Source: Salipiger bermudensis HTCC2601 | GTDB taxonomy: Bacteria; Pseudomonadota; Alphaproteobacteria; Rhodobacterales; Rhodobacteraceae | Direction of reading: 5' to 3' | Assembly: GCF_000153725.1 (NCBI RefSeq) | Contig: NZ_DS022276.1 | Coordinates: forward strand, 2,390,538-2,424,486 | Length of the DNA stretch: 33,949 bases | Shown here: one piece after another, positions 3,932 through 12,356 of the stretch | Layout of the letters: the number at the start of each line of letters is the position of its first letter | Position numbering within the stretch: position 1 is the first letter of the stretch | Notes under the pieces: model-generated | What the model was told of the DNA's origin: nothing | Seen by the model: only the letters and a program-made list of their open reading frames with translations | The model's database searches: none | Made by a program: the position numbers and the translations under genes

Positions 3932-4561
3932 TCAGTTGCTGCTGATGCGGTAATCCGGGCGGTAGAACTGGTGCACGCCGATCGCGGCGGTCTGGTTGAA
4001 CTTGCGCGACCAGGACGGGTTCACCGCGGTGGTGTGGTAGTAGGTCGCGCCGCCGGTCAGTGCGCGCGGGGCGCCCGAGAGCATGATCTTGGCAACCTTG
4101 CCGACGCGCTCCCAGGCGCGGGGCTCGTTGATGTGCTCGGGGTTGCCGTCGCAGGTATAGGTGAACTGGCAGGCGTATTTCCGGCCGGTGCCCTGGCGGA
4201 TCACGCTACAGACCGAATCCGGGAACTTTGCGCTGTCGACGCGGTTGAGAATGACCTCGGCCACGGCAAACTGGCCTTTCACGGTCTCGCCGCGAGCCTC
4301 GAAGTACAGCGCCTCGGCAAGGCACTCCCACTGGGCGCCGCCGCTGGCCTTGGGCTGGCTTTCGAGCCACGTGCGGTCGTAGGAAAATCCGCCCGGACGC
4401 GTTTCGGGCGAGACTAGCGCGTTGAAATGTGCTTTGGTCGCGGTATTGAGCCCGCGCTGTTCGAGCTTCACCAGACGGCGGATATTGTCCTGCTTCACTT
4501 CGGCAGCAAGCGGAGCGGCCGTCGCCAGCAGCGCCAGCGCGGTAAACATAGCCTTGATCAT
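3932..4561 (-). CDS. Exported SleB-type cell wall hydrolase
   Basis: 209 residues. An N-terminal signal peptide (MIKAMFTALALLATAAPLAAE) implies export to the periplasm. The mature part matches the SleB/Hydrolase_2 family: ECLAEALYFEARGE, whose second Glu is the presumed catalytic residue, then VAEVILNRVDS, SVCSVIRQG, CQFTYTCDGN, GATYYHT and a C-terminal IGVHQFYRP. Family members act on peptidoglycan as lytic transglycosylase or amidase; which one is not clear from sequence. The RBS is agaggga just before the ATG. It is the last gene of the minus-strand run starting at glyQ, with 171 bp separating it from the PPDK-like gene, so it may have its own promoter. Confidence 0.88.
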   Translation of the reverse strand: MIKAMFTALALLATAAPLAAEVKQDNIRRLVKLEQRGLNTATKAHFNALVSPETRPGGFSYDRTWLESQPKASGGAQWECLAEALYFEARGETVKGQFAVAEVILNRVDSAKFPDSVCSVIRQGTGRKYACQFTYTCDGNPEHINEPRAWERVGKVAKIMLSGAPRALTGGATYYHTTAVNPSWSRKFNQTAAIGVHQFYRPDYRISSN

Positions 4562-4732: not shown

Positions 4733-7318
4733 CTACCCGATCTTGTCTCTAATTGCGAGTTGAGCGGCTGCTAGCCGTGCAACCGGAACGCGAAACGGGG
4801 AGCAACTCACGTAGTCGATGCCCGCGTTTCGGCAGAAGGCAATCGATTCGGGGTTGCCGCCATGCTCGCCGCAGACCGACAACATGACGCCGCCATTGCC
4901 CTTGCGCCCGCGTTCCACGCCCACCCGGATCAGTTCGCCGACGCCCTCGGCGTCGAGCCGGTGGAACGGATCTTCTGGGAACACGCCTTGCTGCACATAA
5001 TGCGACATGAAGCGTCCGGCATCGTCGCGCGAGAGGCCGTAAGTCATCTGCGTGAGGTCGTTGGTGCCGAAGCTGAGGAAATGCGCGTGCTGGGCGATCT
5101 CGTCGGCACGCAGGCAGGCGCGCGGGGTCTCGACCATGACGCCGAGAGAATAGTCGAAATCGCGGCCGCGCTCGTTGCGCACCGCCGCCGCCACTGCGTC
5201 GATGCGGTTGCGCACCAGCTCGACCTCGCGGCAGGCCGAGACCAGGGGCAGCATGATCTCGGGCACCACCGGCGCGCCCTCCTTGGAGGCCTCGAGCGTC
5301 GCCTCGAAGATGGCCCGGGCCTGCATATCGTAGATCTCGGGCACCGCGATGCCGAGCCGCACGCCGCGCATCCCGAGCATGGGGTTGTATTCGCCCATGC
5401 TCTCGACCCGGCGGGTCACGTCCGAGACCGGCAGGTCGAGCGCCTCGGCCAGATCGCGCAGACCGGCGCGGTCGGAGGGCAGGAACTCGTGCAGCGGCGG
5501 ATCGAAGAGGCGGATGCAGACCGGCATCCCCTCCATGATGCGGAACAGTTCGATGAAATCGGCGCGCTGCATCGGCAGCAGCCGGGCGAGGGCGGTCTTC
5601 CGGTCGTCGGGGCTGTCGGCGAAGATCATCTCGCGCATCGGTGTGATGCGCTCGGCCTCGAAGAACATGTGCTCGGTGCGGCACAGCCCGATACCCTGCG
5701 CCGCGAAATTGCGCGCCGTGGTGGCGTCGGCCGGGGTGTCGGCATTGGCGCGGATGCCGATGTCGCGCTCGGCATCGGCCCAGGACATGAAGACGTGGAA
5801 GGTCTCGTCGAGCGCCGCCTCGATCATCTTCGGCGCACCGGCAAGCACCTGGCCCGAGCTGCCGTCGACGGTGAGGGTGTCGCCCTCGCGGAAGCGGCGG
5901 CCATCCTCGGCCAGCAGCGTCTTGTCGTTGAGGCGGAAGCCCATGCGCGCCGCGCCCACGACGCAGGGCAGGCCGAGGCCGCGGCCGATCACCGCCGCGT
6001 GGCTGGTCATGCCGCCGCGTTCGGTCAGCACCGCCACAGCGGCGTGCATGCCGCGCACGTCCTCTGGCGAGGTCTCGCGCCGGACGAGGATGCAGGGCTC
6101 GCCGCGCGCCGCGCTGGCCTGCGCCTCGGAGGAGGAGAACACGATCTTGCCGGTCGCCGCCCCGGGAGAGGCCGCCACGCCGCGCCCGATGGCGTCGCGC
6201 TCGGCCTCGGGGTCGATCTGCCGGTGCAGCAGCTCGGACAGGCCACGCGGTTCGACCCGCATCAGCGCTTCCTGTTGCGAGATGATGCCGTCATTGGCCA
6301 GCCGCACCGCGATCTGCAGCGCCGCGCGCGAGCTGCGCTTGACCCGTATGGCGTCGAGGATGTGCACCGCGCCATTTTCGAGCGTGAACTCGATCTGCAT
6401 CTCTACCCGCAGCTTGCAGCGCACCAGCGCGGCGTAGTCCTTCAGCGTCTCGAAGGCCCCGGGCGCCAGCTCTTCCAGCGAGGGGCCGCGCGGATCGCGC
6501 TCGAGATAGAGCGAGCTCTGCTCGCACTGCAGCGCCTCGCGGCCCTGGCTCTGGCTCATGTAACGGCCGGTGATCTGCGGCTGCCCGGTCTCGGAATTGA
6601 CCAGCTGCAGCACGCCCGAGCCGCATTCGCCCATGCCGAGCCCCAGCGCCATCTCTTGCACGATGAGCCCCAGCCCGGCATCGACCGGCGCGCCCTTGGC
6701 CTGTCGCAGCAGCCGCGCGGTGGTGCCCTCCCAGGCGCGCGCCATCGAGCGCAGCACCTCGGCCAGCTGCACGGCGGGATCCTGCGGGAAGGGCTCCTCG
6801 GCCTCATCCTCGTAGCAGCGCAGCACGTCGCTCAGGCCTTCCTCGCCGGGGCTGTCGATCTCTTCGAAGACATCCGGATCGAGCCTCGCCACGTGGATGG
6901 CATAGGCCGTGACGAAGCGTTTGTAGAGATCCGAGGCAAGCTCGGGGCCCATGCGCTCGGAATACTCGACGAAGGCGGCGTCGTTCATGCCGATATTGAG
7001 CACCGAGCCGGGCCCGCCCCAATCGGGATCCTCCGAGGAGGGGCGCACACAGAGCAGCGCGCCGGGGGCGAACTCGCCGAGAATCGCGACCACGTCGGGC
7101 ATTTCGCCCGCGGCGATGCGGTGCACGGTGTCGAAGCTCAGCGCCACGGTGCGCGGCACCGGCAGATCGAGCCGCACGAGCCGCTGCAGGCACTTGGCAC
7201 GCCCCCCGTGGCTCGGCGTCGAGATCGGCGCCGATGGGGTGATGAGCGTGACCCGCGGGTCCTGGTCCTGTCGCAGCGTGTCGGGCACGGGAGATCCTGT
7301 TTTTCCGCAGTGCAGCAT
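4733..7318 (-). CDS. PPDK-family PEP/pyruvate protein with degenerate ATP-grasp domain
   Basis: 861 residues (PPDK is about 880). Order: ATP-grasp-like region (about 37-350), phospho-His swivelling domain (about 370-490), PEP/pyruvate TIM barrel (about 510-861). The His loop GGMTSHAAVIGRGLGLPC is intact (His440), as are GIGLCRTEHMFF, FGTNDLTQMTYG, and VCGEHGGNP with the catalytic Cys at 816. The ATP-grasp part diverges: the family's DIEFT and LQTRNGKR motifs read QIEFT (307-312) and LDAIRVKR, which replaces the Asp, Gln and Arg remembered as D321, Q335 and R337 of the Clostridium symbiosum enzyme; the NAQGEDVVAG-type loop is SQSQGREALQ. Glu310 remains. The start is uncertain: no clear SD precedes the ATG. 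Many databases would call this ppdK; ATP-dependent dikinase activity is doubtful. Confidence 0.88.
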   Translation of the reverse strand: MLHCGKTGSPVPDTLRQDQDPRVTLITPSAPISTPSHGGRAKCLQRLVRLDLPVPRTVALSFDTVHRIAAGEMPDVVAILGEFAPGALLCVRPSSEDPDWGGPGSVLNIGMNDAAFVEYSERMGPELASDLYKRFVTAYAIHVARLDPDVFEEIDSPGEEGLSDVLRCYEDEAEEPFPQDPAVQLAEVLRSMARAWEGTTARLLRQAKGAPVDAGLGLIVQEMALGLGMGECGSGVLQLVNSETGQPQITGRYMSQSQGREALQCEQSSLYLERDPRGPSLEELAPGAFETLKDYAALVRCKLRVEMQIEFTLENGAVHILDAIRVKRSSRAALQIAVRLANDGIISQQEALMRVEPRGLSELLHRQIDPEAERDAIGRGVAASPGAATGKIVFSSSEAQASAARGEPCILVRRETSPEDVRGMHAAVAVLTERGGMTSHAAVIGRGLGLPCVVGAARMGFRLNDKTLLAEDGRRFREGDTLTVDGSSGQVLAGAPKMIEAALDETFHVFMSWADAERDIGIRANADTPADATTARNFAAQGIGLCRTEHMFFEAERITPMREMIFADSPDDRKTALARLLPMQRADFIELFRIMEGMPVCIRLFDPPLHEFLPSDRAGLRDLAEALDLPVSDVTRRVESMGEYNPMLGMRGVRLGIAVPEIYDMQARAIFEATLEASKEGAPVVPEIMLPLVSACREVELVRNRIDAVAAAVRNERGRDFDYSLGVMVETPRACLRADEIAQHAHFLSFGTNDLTQMTYGLSRDDAGRFMSHYVQQGVFPEDPFHRLDAEGVGELIRVGVERGRKGNGGVMLSVCGEHGGNPESIAFCRNAGIDYVSCSPFRVPVARLAAAQLAIRDKIG

Positions 7319-7473: not shown

Positions 7474-9699
7474 TCAGCCCTCGAGGCGGTTCAGATCGGC
7501 CACCTGAAGGCAGCTTGTGCGGATGCGCGACAGCAGGTTGAGGCGGTTGCGGCGCACCACCGGGCTCTCGGAATTGACCTGCACCGCCTCGAAAAAGGCG
7601 TCGATCGGCGCGCGCAGACCGGCCATGGCGGTCATGGCAGCGGCGAAATCTTCCTTTTCCAGCGCGGGCTTGATCTCGGCATCGGCGGCATCGAGCGCGG
7701 CGAACAGCGCCTTTTCCTCGTCGACCTCGGCAAACTTGGGGTCGGCGCCGAAGCTGTACTCGACCCCGTCCTTGTCCTCGGCCTGGGTGAGGATGTTGTT
7801 GGCGCGCTTGAAGCCCTGGACGAGGTTTGCGCCGTCCTCGGTGCCCAGCACCTCGCCGAGCGCCGTGGCGCGGCGCACCACCTGAGCGAGGTCGTCATTG
7901 CCGGGCATCGCCAGCACTGCATCAATCACGTCATGCCGCACGCCTTCGCCCTTGAGGTGCACCTTGAGGCGGTCGTGGAAGAAGGCGAGCAGATCGTCGC
8001 TGAGATCGGGGCGGTGGTTGGTGACCTCTTTGACCCACTCGGCCGCGTCGCCCTCAATCTCGTCGATCACGGCCTTGACCGAGGAGCCGAAGACGCCGTG
8101 TTGCGCGATCTCGCGCAGCAGCGCATCGCGCAGCTCCTGCTGGTCGCTATCAACGCCGGCTTCGATCTTGTGGCGCAGGATCTGCGCGTCGAAGAGGCGG
8201 TCGAGATGCAGGCGCAGCCCATTGACCAGCACCAGCCGGATCACGCCAAGCGCGGCGCGGCGCAGCGCATAGGGGTCCTTGGAGCCGGTTGGTTTCTCGT
8301 CGATCGCCCAGAAGCCGGTCAGCGTGTCGAGCTTGTCGGCCAGCGCCACGGTGACCGAGACCGGCGCGGTGGGCACGGCGTCGGACGGCCCGAGCGGCGA
8401 GTAATGCTCCTCGCAGGCCACGGCGACCTCTGTCGGCAGGCCGGCGGCCTCGGCGTAATAACGGCCCATAAGCCCCTGAAGCTCGGGGAATTCATAGACC
8501 ATCTCCGAGCTCAGGTCGGCCTTGGCCACGCGCGCCGCCTGCTCGGCCAGCGCTGCGTCCGCGCCGACCATCGGTGCGATCTCGCGCGCCAGTGCCGCGA
8601 TGCGCTCGATGCGGTCGCGCTGCGAGCCAAGCTTGTTGTGGAAGGTCACGTTGCCGAGCCGCTCGGTCCAGGCTTCCAGGCCCTCGTTCTTTGCGACACG
8701 CAGATCGTTCTCCCAGAAGAACTTGGCGTCGGACAGCCGGGCCGAAAGCACCTTGTTGTTGCCTGCGAGGATGGTCGCGCCGTCATCCGGCGTTTCCACA
8801 TTTGCAACCGTGACAAAGCCTTCAATGCGGCTGGTGGCCGGATTCTTGACCGAAAAGAACTTCTGGTGCTCTTTCATCGAGGTCTGGAGCACTTCCGGCG
8901 GCAGCTCGAGGAACTGCGCGTCGATCTTGCCCATCAGCACCACCGGCCACTCGACCAGACCCGCCACCTCGGCCAGCAGCCCGCGGTCCTCGACCACTTC
9001 GAGGCCTTGGGCGAAGGCGCGGTTTGTCGCGTCATGCCAGATGGTTTCAGCGCGTTCCTCAGCCGAGAGGATGACCTTCGCGCGCTTCAGCCGGGTTTCG
9101 TAATCGGCAAAGGAGGTCACTTCGAAGGCGCCGTCGCCCATGAAGCGGTGGCCCTCGGTGGTCTGGCCCGCCTCGATGCCATCGATTTCCAAGGGCACGA
9201 CCGCGTCGCCGGCCTCGGAGCTCAGGACGCACATGATGCGGTGCAGCGGGCGGACCCAGCGCAACGTGCCTGCGCCCCAGCGCATCGACTTGGGCCAGGG
9301 GAAGTTGCGGATCGCCGCTTCGAGCACCTCGGCCACGATCTCGGCCGCCGGGCGGCCCGGCTTCTCGATCACCGCGTAGAGAAAGGTGCCCTTCTTGTCC
9401 TCGCGCGCTTCGCATTGCTCGCGGCTGACGCCGGCACCGCGCAGGAAGCCCTCGATGGCCTTCTCCGGCGCGTCGACCTTGGGGCCGCGGCGCTCTTCGC
9501 GGGTGGCGGGGGAGGCGTCGAGCAGACCGCTCACGGTGAGGGTCAGCCGGCGCGGCGTCGAGAAGGCCGCGGCGCCGGCATAGGTCAGACCGTTCTCCAC
9601 CAGACCGTCGGTGACGAGTTTCTTCAGATCCTCCGCGGCACGCGTCTGCATGCGGGCGGGGATTTCCTCGGAAAAGAGTTCGATCAGAAGGTCGGGCAT
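7474..9699 (-). CDS. glyS: Glycyl-tRNA synthetase beta subunit GlyS
   Basis: Beta subunit of the alpha2beta2 glycyl-tRNA synthetase; it binds tRNA and completes the enzyme with GlyQ. 741 residues, somewhat longer than E. coli GlyS (689). The N-terminus [18 protein letters not shown] is diagnostic, followed by [42 protein letters not shown] and the HD-type central region ([17 protein letters not shown], then [12 protein letters not shown]). A GGTGAG SD precedes the ATG. It lies downstream of glyQ on the same strand but is separated from it by two membrane-protein genes and repeat copy 2. Confidence 0.97.
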
Positions 9700-10863: not shown

Positions 10864-11379
10864 TCACTCCCGCGGCGGGCAGTCCTCGCCGAGCGGCGTG
10901 CCGTCATAGGCCTTGTCGCCGCAATCGTTGATCTCTTCCCAGATATAGCCGCGGCCGTCCTCGGTCACCGCGACCACCCGGTCGATGCCGTATTCGATAT
11001 TGCGCTGCGCGGTATAGACATGCGCCTCGCCGGTCTCGACAAGCGTCCCGATCGCCTCGGCGTCGAAGCAGTCGAACCAGAACGGCGCATTGCGCGGCTC
11101 CGCGCCGTCGTAGTGCTCGAAGCGCGCGTCGAGAGCCTGCGGGCGCTCTGGCGTGGTGAAGCAGCCGCGGAAGCGGATCGGCGAGCTGGTGGCGTCGATG
11201 CCCTCGAAATCGCCATAGGGGATGTGTTCGGGCGCGCCGCCGTCGAGCGGCGTCAGGAAGACCTGCCCGGCATCGTCCTCGACACGCTCGTAGTAGTGGA
11301 ACACCTGGAAATAGTAGACCCCGGCGCCGAAGAGCAGGGCGGTCACGATGATGGCGATGCCGAGGATCTTGCCGCTCAT
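10864..11379 (-). CDS. DUF6446 family membrane-anchored protein
   Basis: 171 residues. One N-terminal membrane anchor (residues about 5-25: ILGIAIIVTALLFGAGVYYF) and an extracytoplasmic domain carrying IDATSSPIRFRGCFTTP, PFWFDCFDAEAIG and GIDRVVAVTEDGRGYIWEEIN with four Cys, the last in EDCPPRE. These match the DUF6446 pattern I recall from Rhodobacteraceae; the function is unknown. The frame is open further upstream into glyQ, but MSGKIL at 11379 has GGAG 7 nt upstream and begins the anchor. It follows glyQ by 47 bp, so co-transcription is likely. Confidence 0.85.
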   Translation of the reverse strand: MSGKILGIAIIVTALLFGAGVYYFQVFHYYERVEDDAGQVFLTPLDGGAPEHIPYGDFEGIDATSSPIRFRGCFTTPERPQALDARFEHYDGAEPRNAPFWFDCFDAEAIGTLVETGEAHVYTAQRNIEYGIDRVVAVTEDGRGYIWEEINDCGDKAYDGTPLGEDCPPRE

Positions 11380-11426
11380 GTCTGCGCTCCGGTCTGGGTC
11401 TGTCTCTGGATGTCGGGCCGCGCGGC

Positions 11427-12356
11427 TCAGGCCGCGTGGCCGCCGGCCTCGGTCATCACGAAGCGTCGGCGCAGCGCTTGGCCAGCGCCCGGACCCGGGC
11501 CGATATAGGCCTGGCGCTCGGTGACCGAGATCACGCCGCGCGCGTCGAGCAGGTTGAACAGGTGGCTGGCCTTGATGCACTGGTCATAGGCCGGGTGGGC
11601 CATGACGATGCGCTTGCCGGTCTTGGGATCCACTGCCTCGGCCTCGAGCGCGCGCTGGCACTCGGCTTCGGCATCCTCGAAATGCTTCAGCAGCGTCTCG
11701 GTGTCGGCCACGTCGAAGTTCCAGCGCGAGTATTCCTCCTCGGTCTGGCGGAACACGTCGCCATAGAGCAGCGGCTGCGGCGATTGCGGGTCGTTGAACG
11801 GCATCTCCATGACGTGGTCGATGCCCAGCACGTACATGGCGAGGCGTTCGAGCCCGTAGGTCAGCTCGCCCGAGACCGGGGTGCAGTCATGCCCGCCGAC
11901 CTGCTGGAAATAGGTGAACTGCGACACTTCCATGCCGTCGCACCAGACCTCCCAGCCCAGGCCCCAGGCGCCCAGCGTCGGGCTTTCCCAGTCGTCCTCG
12001 ACGAAGCGCACGTCATGCATCGACATGTCGATGCCGATGGCCTCGAGCGAACCGAGATAGAGCGCCTGCAGGTCCGGCGGCGACGGTTTGATCAGCACCT
12101 GGAACTGGTAGTAATGCTGCAGCCGGTTCGGGTTCTCGCCGTAGCGCCCGTCGGTCGGGCGGCGCGAGGGCTGCACATAGGCCGCAGCCCAGGGCTTGGA
12201 GCCGAGCGCGCGCAGCGTGGTGGCCGGGTGGAAGGTGCCGGCACCGACTTCCATGTCGTAGGGCTGCAGCACGGCGCAGCCCTTGGCGGCCCAATAGGTC
12301 TGCAGTCGCAGGATGATCTCCTGGAAGCTCCGCGGTTTGGTGCTGGTGTCGGTCAT
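11427..12356 (-). CDS. glyQ: Glycyl-tRNA synthetase alpha subunit GlyQ
   Basis: Catalytic class II alpha subunit that activates glycine with ATP; it works as an alpha2beta2 tetramer with GlyS. 309 residues (E. coli 303). Diagnostic stretches: [88 protein letters not shown] and [14 protein letters not shown]. The start at 12356 was preferred over the upstream in-frame ATG at 12407 because a promoter lies between them (-10 at 12386-12391), so the longer form would begin upstream of the transcript. First gene of the long minus-strand run. Confidence 0.97.

Follow-up and report, generated by a model that had tools for sequence, protein, structure and literature searches.

A PPDK-like protein of Salipiger bermudensis and other Rhodobacteraceae with a conserved PEP site and replaced ATP-site residues

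The window, which is the whole stretch of 33,949 nucleotides of Salipiger bermudensis HTCC2601 DNA that was analysed, encodes a protein resembling pyruvate, phosphate dikinase (PPDK). Across its family, the Rhodobacteraceae, the ATP-site and domain-docking residues of this protein are replaced and seven tested residues of the phospho-histidine (His) and PEP domains are retained, in a gene that has descended vertically and is still under selection. The protein would best be read, at a probability of roughly 0.6, as a PEP-charged phospho-histidine protein without dikinase activity, derived from a glyS-linked alphaproteobacterial PPDK. An earlier note, made from the sequence of this DNA, had proposed that the PEP half still works and the ATP-grasp half does not, and this proposal is strongly supported by the family comparison, by the finding of no second PPDK in the genome and, less directly, by published flux data. 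Coordinates of all features are collected in Table 1.

Table 1. Features of the PPDK-like gene and its neighbours (window positions; residue numbers of the window protein, with C. symbiosum equivalents where given)
Feature	Position	Strand	Basis or remark
PPDK-like protein, 861 aa	4733..7318	minus	ORF 7318..4733; start possibly GTG 7288
Former nucleotide-binding (ATP-grasp) domain, residues ~20-342	6293..7261	minus	AF2 fold intact
Predicted beta hairpin, residues 308-324	6347..6397	minus	carries Q308 (D321), E310 (E323), D322 (Q335), I324 (R337)
R40 for K22	7199..7201	minus	residue alignment
T200 for docking residue R219	6719..6721	minus	alignment; docking role from PDB 2R82 title and the literature
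R252 for docking residue E271	6563..6565	minus	alignment; identical substitution in 2R82
R260 for E279 (GEDVVAG loop)	6539..6541	minus	alignment
Phospho-histidine (mobile) domain PF00391, residues 407-489	5852..6100	minus	Pfam
Catalytic His440 in GGMTSHAAV	5999..6001	minus	alignment
PEP/pyruvate-binding domain PF02896, residues 506-854	4757..5803	minus	Pfam; R547, R603, E730, N753, C816 intact
glyS, upstream neighbour	7474..9699	minus	conserved synteny
DUF6446 (PF20044), between glyQ and glyS, upstream of glyS	10864..11580	minus	family-specific; candidate partner only
Cell wall hydrolase (PF07486), directly downstream	3932..4561	minus	relative within 5 kb downstream in 54/56 family loci

The gene coordinates in the earlier note were correct, and the strand is minus. 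The true start may not be ATG 7318 but, more likely, GTG 7288 (residue 11), which an AGGA precedes by six bases. No PPDK_N domain was matched by Pfam in the 861-aa protein even at E ≤ 1. Against the NCBIfam PPDK model TIGR01828 the protein scored 834.5 bits, below the equivalog cut-off of 843.45, and two canonical PPDKs scored 1385.9 and 1377.3 bits; one of ten non-canonical family proteins tested, nine of which were scored on the matched region only, exceeded the cut-off (L074, 847.8). Scores against the PEP synthase model TIGR01418 (163.9 bits, cut-off 739.75) and the PTS Enzyme I model TIGR01417 (124.5 bits, cut-off 341.7) were likewise below threshold, and the top phmmer match aligned residues 77-859 to a solved PPDK.

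Residues are numbered by the C. symbiosum PPDK chain, in which D321, E323, Q335, R337, H455, R561, R617, E745, N768 and C831 were confirmed at their expected positions. The phospho-His loop, PEP site and catalytic Cys, described earlier as intact, are indeed so (H455 is H440 in the window protein, R561 is R547, R617 is R603, E745 is E730, N768 is N753, and C831 is C816), and the replacement of D321, Q335 and R337 by Gln308, Asp322 and Ile324 was reproduced, as was the loss of the GEDVVAG loop, which reads QGREALQ. These assignments had been said to rest on an ungapped alignment, and the key strands were gap-free in two separate alignments, with 29 canonical sequences sharing the same columns. 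Beyond the residues named in the note, K22, E279, R219 and E271 are replaced (Table 1), D280 is Glu261, and the P-G-M-M loop reads W-G-G-P; R92 (R92), R135 (R134), Q240 (Q221) and E323 (E310) are retained. Two of the five ATP-grasp ligands K22, R92, D321, E323 and Q335, which are reportedly essential by mutagenesis, are thus kept, and R135 alone is kept among R337, E279, D280 and R135, presumably the Pi-site residues. Where canonical enzymes have D321..Q335 the window protein has Q308..D322, a reciprocal swap between neighbouring strands of the predicted hairpin.

For the family-wide comparison, 200 sequences of at least 700 aa were used; 10 shorter ones were excluded from the residue counts. 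Sequences carrying the quartet D321/E323/Q335/R337 were defined as canonical (29 sequences, which therefore score 29/29 on those residues by construction); 171 were without it, 154 of them distinct, including the window's. The canonical group comprised 28 sequences from outside the family and that of genome G097, and all 154 non-canonical sequences came from the family, so that among distinct full-length sequences the quartet was present in 28/28 outside the family vs 1/155 within it (G097). Non-canonical sequences were divided into a main clade (135) and divergent family sequences (19) by a split that the analyst set at 63% identity. Compared in this way, K22 was Lys in 29/29 canonical vs 7/154 non-canonical sequences, R219 was Arg in 29/29 vs 3/154 (Thr/Ser in 150/154), E271 was Glu in 29/29 vs 2/154 (Arg in 148/154), and E279 was Glu in 29/29 vs 4/154, whereas R92 was Arg in 29/29 vs 153/154. 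Position 449 of the His domain, which we take to be the docking partner of 271, was Arg or Lys in 153/154 non-canonical sequences. The seven residues H455, R561, R617, E745, N768, D769 and C831 were all present in 29/29 canonical, 135/135 main-clade and 19/19 divergent sequences.

At the five ATP-site residues (K22/R92/D321/E323/Q335), main-clade sequences retained two (132) or one (3), and divergent sequences one (8), two (8) or three (3). The main clade carries a Q/E-E-D triad in 132/135 sequences, together with R92 (135/135), R135 (131/135) and Q240 (135/135); E323 was retained in 8 and R135 in 10 of the divergent 19. The alignment with PPDKs and family homologues that the earlier note had proposed thus places the replacements family-wide, in 154 distinct sequences, and since these losses recur letter for letter in most of the 135 main-clade sequences, the substitutions in the window protein are far from chance. 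The 65 named family loci, which include Leisingera, Roseovarius, Tritonibacter, Marivita and Shimia, contained no canonical sequence where the site was covered.

In the family sample, a match at E ≤ 1e-100 was found in 188/198 genomes, including the canonical copy of G097. Copies of 98 of the 188 matching genomes were inspected, five in part, and the remaining family sequences came from further genomes of the window's genus and from the 65 named loci, which were assigned to the family by similarity. No match at 1e-100 was obtained in 10/198 family genomes, 6 of them not of good quality, and since 4/174 good-quality genomes had none, the gene is not indispensable. The small genome G214 (2.1 Mb, L159) retains it with the PEP half intact. 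In-frame stops noted in some orthologues accompany open frames of ~855 aa or more and were not counted as broken copies. A search of the window's own genome for a second, canonical ppdK, also suggested earlier, found none: the other matches all fell in a single 784-aa frame, which is 26-29% identical to the window protein across the His and PEP regions, and no PPDK_N domain was matched in that genome, which has pyruvate kinase and ATP-PEPCK. PF01326 matched 58/198 family genomes, many matches being of PEP-synthase-like length, and, where both positions were listed, coincided with the PPDK-like match only in G097 (L155). G097 (L155, L321) held the sole canonical PPDK among the inspected family genomes, together with PDRP (PF03618) and a divergent DUF6446, and is useful for tracing the change.

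A survey of the class gave matches in 150/192 genomes (152 matches), of which 89 copies besides the window's were inspected (2 from the family and 87 from outside it, some from genomes already sampled). Both family copies were non-canonical, and 86/87 outside copies retained D321, E323, Q335 and R337. The exception, L301 (G253; the same gene as L317:7826-10507), has K22, D321, E323 and Q335 changed and E271 replaced by Arg, with R337 and R219 kept; it is glyQ-glyS-linked, has an intact PEP half and scores 1030.3 against TIGR01828, above the cut-off, and a canonical copy (L302) lies elsewhere in G253. In a tree built from the His and PEP domains, which included 15/154 non-canonical family sequences, L301 fell next to canonical sequences from other families (SH-aLRT 80, short of the starred level) and apart from Rhodobacteraceae. 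A second, independent origin of a changed ATP site in another alphaproteobacterial family is likely on this placement, though only moderately supported. In the first tree, which included 35/135 main-clade sequences, the Rhodobacteraceae proteins, including canonical G097, formed one clade (99) and the main clade one group (97); the ATP site may have been lost once or more often within the family (two changes counted), and long branches were flagged by the tool for L156 and L159. As side observations, one copy of G312 (L299; locus L319) keeps the quartet at a glyQ-glyS locus and has R561 changed to Ser and N768 to Asp in the PEP half, the second G312 copy (L300) retaining both residue sets; and PPDK-like genes 77% and 73% identical to the window's occur in L072 (titled Enemella evansiae TN21-6) and L104 (titled Nocardioides marinus DP1N28-1), respectively, which are probably mislabelled or contaminated assemblies.

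The nucleotide-binding domain (NBD) had been called degraded, which holds in part: in the main clade the domain remains under purifying selection, with a new conserved residue set that includes the D321..Q335 swap. Among positions invariant in canonical sequences, the main clade retained 33/94 in the NBD, 30/35 in the His domain and 89/95 in the PEP domain, and of the NBD positions 32 now carry a different residue that ≥90% of the 135 sequences share and 29 varied. At a PEP-domain identity of 0.60-0.65, mean NBD identity was 68% in canonical pairs vs 34% in non-canonical pairs, a gap that was smaller at 0.70-0.75 (72% vs 61%). Invariant columns made up 27% of the NBD and 50% of the PEP domain in the main clade, 31% and 26% in canonical sequences, and 0.6% and 25.5% in divergent family sequences. 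NBD dN/dS was 0.05-0.33 in ten non-canonical pairs (seven of which share the window's gene, and some with high dS values), 1.6-6.3 times that of the PEP domain, and the corresponding ratio was 0.7-1.2 in three canonical pairs. The main-clade NBD, with its purifying selection and new residue set, therefore looks rewired and not rotting, and the conservation contrast between divergent and main-clade sequences suggests that the ATP site could be given up in some lineages, and that in the main clade it carries new residues that are themselves conserved.

Modelling of the ATP-grasp domain, as the note had advised, was performed with AF2, giving an intact three-domain fold (pLDDT 86) in which residues 308-324 form a hairpin. 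The highest TM-score of this model was to 5jvl_C (0.87, PEP-facing), and in the comparison of poses 2r82 (0.78, also PEP-facing) was matched better than 1kbl (0.67, NBD-facing). L123, chosen as the canonical control and modelled on an alignment that drew on the same 30 loci (the structure alignments excluded L075, L101 and L110), scored 0.90 to 1vbg, 0.87 to 2r82 and 0.66 to 1kbl, and since the control takes the same PEP-facing pose, this pose was rejected as evidence for a parked conformation. The engineered PPDK 2R82 combines mutations at R219, E271 and S262, and its central domain is described at the PEP side in PMC5371819.

glyS was found upstream on the same strand in 168/170 loci where it was found, canonical loci included, and on the opposite strand in 2; it was absent from the fetched DNA at 40 loci. 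With 5-kb flanks, it lay upstream in 55/56 family loci (52 on the same strand) and was detected in 14/15 outside-family loci, one of which (L130) is not alphaproteobacterial by title. This conserved linkage makes the window protein a vertical descendant of an ordinary alphaproteobacterial ppdK. A relative of the PF07486 gene lay within 5 kb downstream in 54/56 family loci.

No dedicated partner of the PPDK-like protein was found in the genomic comparison. A DUF6446 relative lay upstream in 48/56 full-flank family loci (45 on the same strand) vs 1/15 outside the family, and DUF6446 was present in 185/198 family genomes vs 0/14 control genomes; as it also neighbours the canonical copy of G097 and is present in G136 and G169, two genomes without a PPDK-like match, it was kept as a lead only. 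HPr, near-universal at 189/198 family genomes, was uninformative as a candidate partner. PDRP, a regulator of PPDK, was found in 8/198 family genomes and not in the window's own; the carriers are G097, with its canonical PPDK, and seven genomes whose copies are non-canonical and divergent, sharing 50-60% identity with that of the window (one is a partial sequence). PDRP was absent from all main-clade genomes of the sample. It was rejected as a marker of function.

PEP-from-pyruvate flux was 0 in D. shibae and P. gallaeciensis despite an annotated ppdK, according to the 13C work of PMC2761930, and R. denitrificans showed weak pyruvate-to-PEP flux with low ppdK expression in PMC2749216. These data fit, and do not prove, a protein unable to make PEP from pyruvate, the genes of those three species lying outside the residue comparison; zero or weak flux may instead reflect low ppdK expression or growth conditions. 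A role of ppdK in roseobacter mixotrophic CO2 assimilation, through pyruvate-to-PEP conversion, has been proposed, and PMC2761930 cites this proposal and reports no flux of this kind. In PMC4334477, SPO1359 of Ruegeria pomeroyi appears as a pyruvate, phosphate dikinase. The literature searched, which left most subscription journals out of reach, yielded no account of a Rhodobacteraceae PPDK whose ATP site has been lost.

Were the protein an ordinary PPDK, its substitutions would have to be an alignment artefact. The TIGR01828 score near the cut-off might invite that reading, but the key strands are gap-free in both alignments and the 29 canonical sequences fit the same columns, which refutes it at the sequence level and leaves it almost no probability. 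A functionless relic in slow decay would accord with an NBD evolving faster than the rest of the protein and with the ten family genomes, six not of good quality, in which no match was obtained at 1e-100; against this, the seven His- and PEP-domain catalytic residues are present in 154/154 sequences, dN/dS is low and 188/198 genomes have a match, and we regard a relic as very improbable.

Two further alternatives, about equal and both unlikely, give the former ATP-grasp pocket a chemical role. In one, Q308, E310 and D322 with R40, R92 and R134 would bind nucleotide in a rewired active site, as a dikinase or as a water-dependent or differently specific kinase. The swap of D321 and Q335 on adjacent hairpin strands would allow a remodelled metal or phosphate site, and a changed nucleotide or phosphate site would be possible in the main clade, where E323, R92, R135 and Q240 are kept, K22 is Arg, and D321 and Q335 are exchanged rather than simply lost; the conserved triad, the modelled hairpin and a top structural match to a PPDK entry titled 'nucleotide binding domain with bound ATP analogue' point the same way. 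However, the QxR motif, the GEDVVAG loop and the docking pair are gone, and the divergent 19 lose even E323 and R135 in part. The D321 and Q335 mutants of the Ye 2001 mutagenesis were reportedly inactive. The in vivo flux reported for related genera is zero or weak (PMC2761930, PMC2749216). In the other alternative, a PEP:metabolite phosphotransferase, the pocket would bind a small molecule as acceptor of the His440 phosphoryl group. The 32 NBD positions switched to new near-invariant residues and the fold retained in the AF2 model suit this, and PPDK relatives apply the three-domain plan to other substrates (e.g., rifampin phosphotransferase, with weak structure matches here), but an Arg in place of E271 should make it harder for the His domain to dock on the NBD, short of a rebuilt interface, constraint on the NBD is nearly absent in divergent family sequences, and the genome offers no hint of a substrate.

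In the preferred reading of a PEP-charged phospho-histidine protein, PEP would bind the C-terminal site and phosphorylate His440, yielding pyruvate reversibly, as full conservation of the site suggests. The ATP-grasp step (ATP + Pi to AMP + PPi) would be lost, because other residues stand in place of the presumed Mg ligands, the gamma-phosphate loop, the presumed Pi-site residues and the pair on which the His domain docks. With the dikinase activity presumably absent, His440~P would serve as a phosphoryl donor or sensor poised between PEP and pyruvate, and the former nucleotide domain, in a new role, may read the His440~P state or bind a partner. The more specific proposal that the former ATP-grasp domain now docks a partner or acts as an effector domain, making the protein a second PEP-driven phosphorelay or a PEP/pyruvate sensor beside the PTS in Rhodobacteraceae, is tentative and put at slightly less than even odds. 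If the family-wide reading is true, roseobacter models of pyruvate-to-PEP conversion and CO2 assimilation that include ppdK contain a nonexistent reaction, and the ppdK label conceals, across a large bacterial family, a PEP-dependent phospho-histidine protein still to be explored.

Among known systems, PEP synthase (pyruvate, water dikinase) shares the His and PEP domains, with the window protein far below its TIGR01418 cut-off. PTS Enzyme I shares the PEP-binding domain and, by homology, probably the PEP-to-His chemistry, but the His of the window protein is on a PPDK-type mobile domain, and the HPr-binding N-domain of Enzyme I had no Pfam match in it at E ≤ 1. Canonical PPDK (C. symbiosum, maize; TIGR01828) is alike in domain order, fold (TM 0.87 to 5jvl_C), His loop, PEP site and a glyS-linked locus, which most outside-family relatives also have, and unlike in its ATP/Mg ligands, GEDVVAG loop and NBD-His docking pair, all replaced here; the window protein thus has the His loop and PEP site of PPDK, lacks its ATP-grasp, Pi-site and docking residues, and scores just below TIGR01828. 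The 2R82 triple mutant R219E/E271R/S262D is said to retain the PEP half-reaction alone. Charged residues were introduced in it, according to PMC5371819; its E271 to Arg change is identical in the window protein, which has also lost R219, but the window protein is natural, has further Mg and Pi-site losses and is known here from sequence, not from a solved conformation. VadK (Rv1127c, M. tuberculosis) is likewise a PPDK-derived histidine phosphoprotein turned from central metabolism, without PPDK flux in vivo according to PMC13400623, and is the mirror image of the window protein, keeping the ATP and His halves without a PEP domain according to the same paper; that combination of a functional ATP half and no PEP domain was not found in the window protein. 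If the present reading is true, this protein and VadK together would show PPDK cut down to one half in one lineage and to the other half in another.
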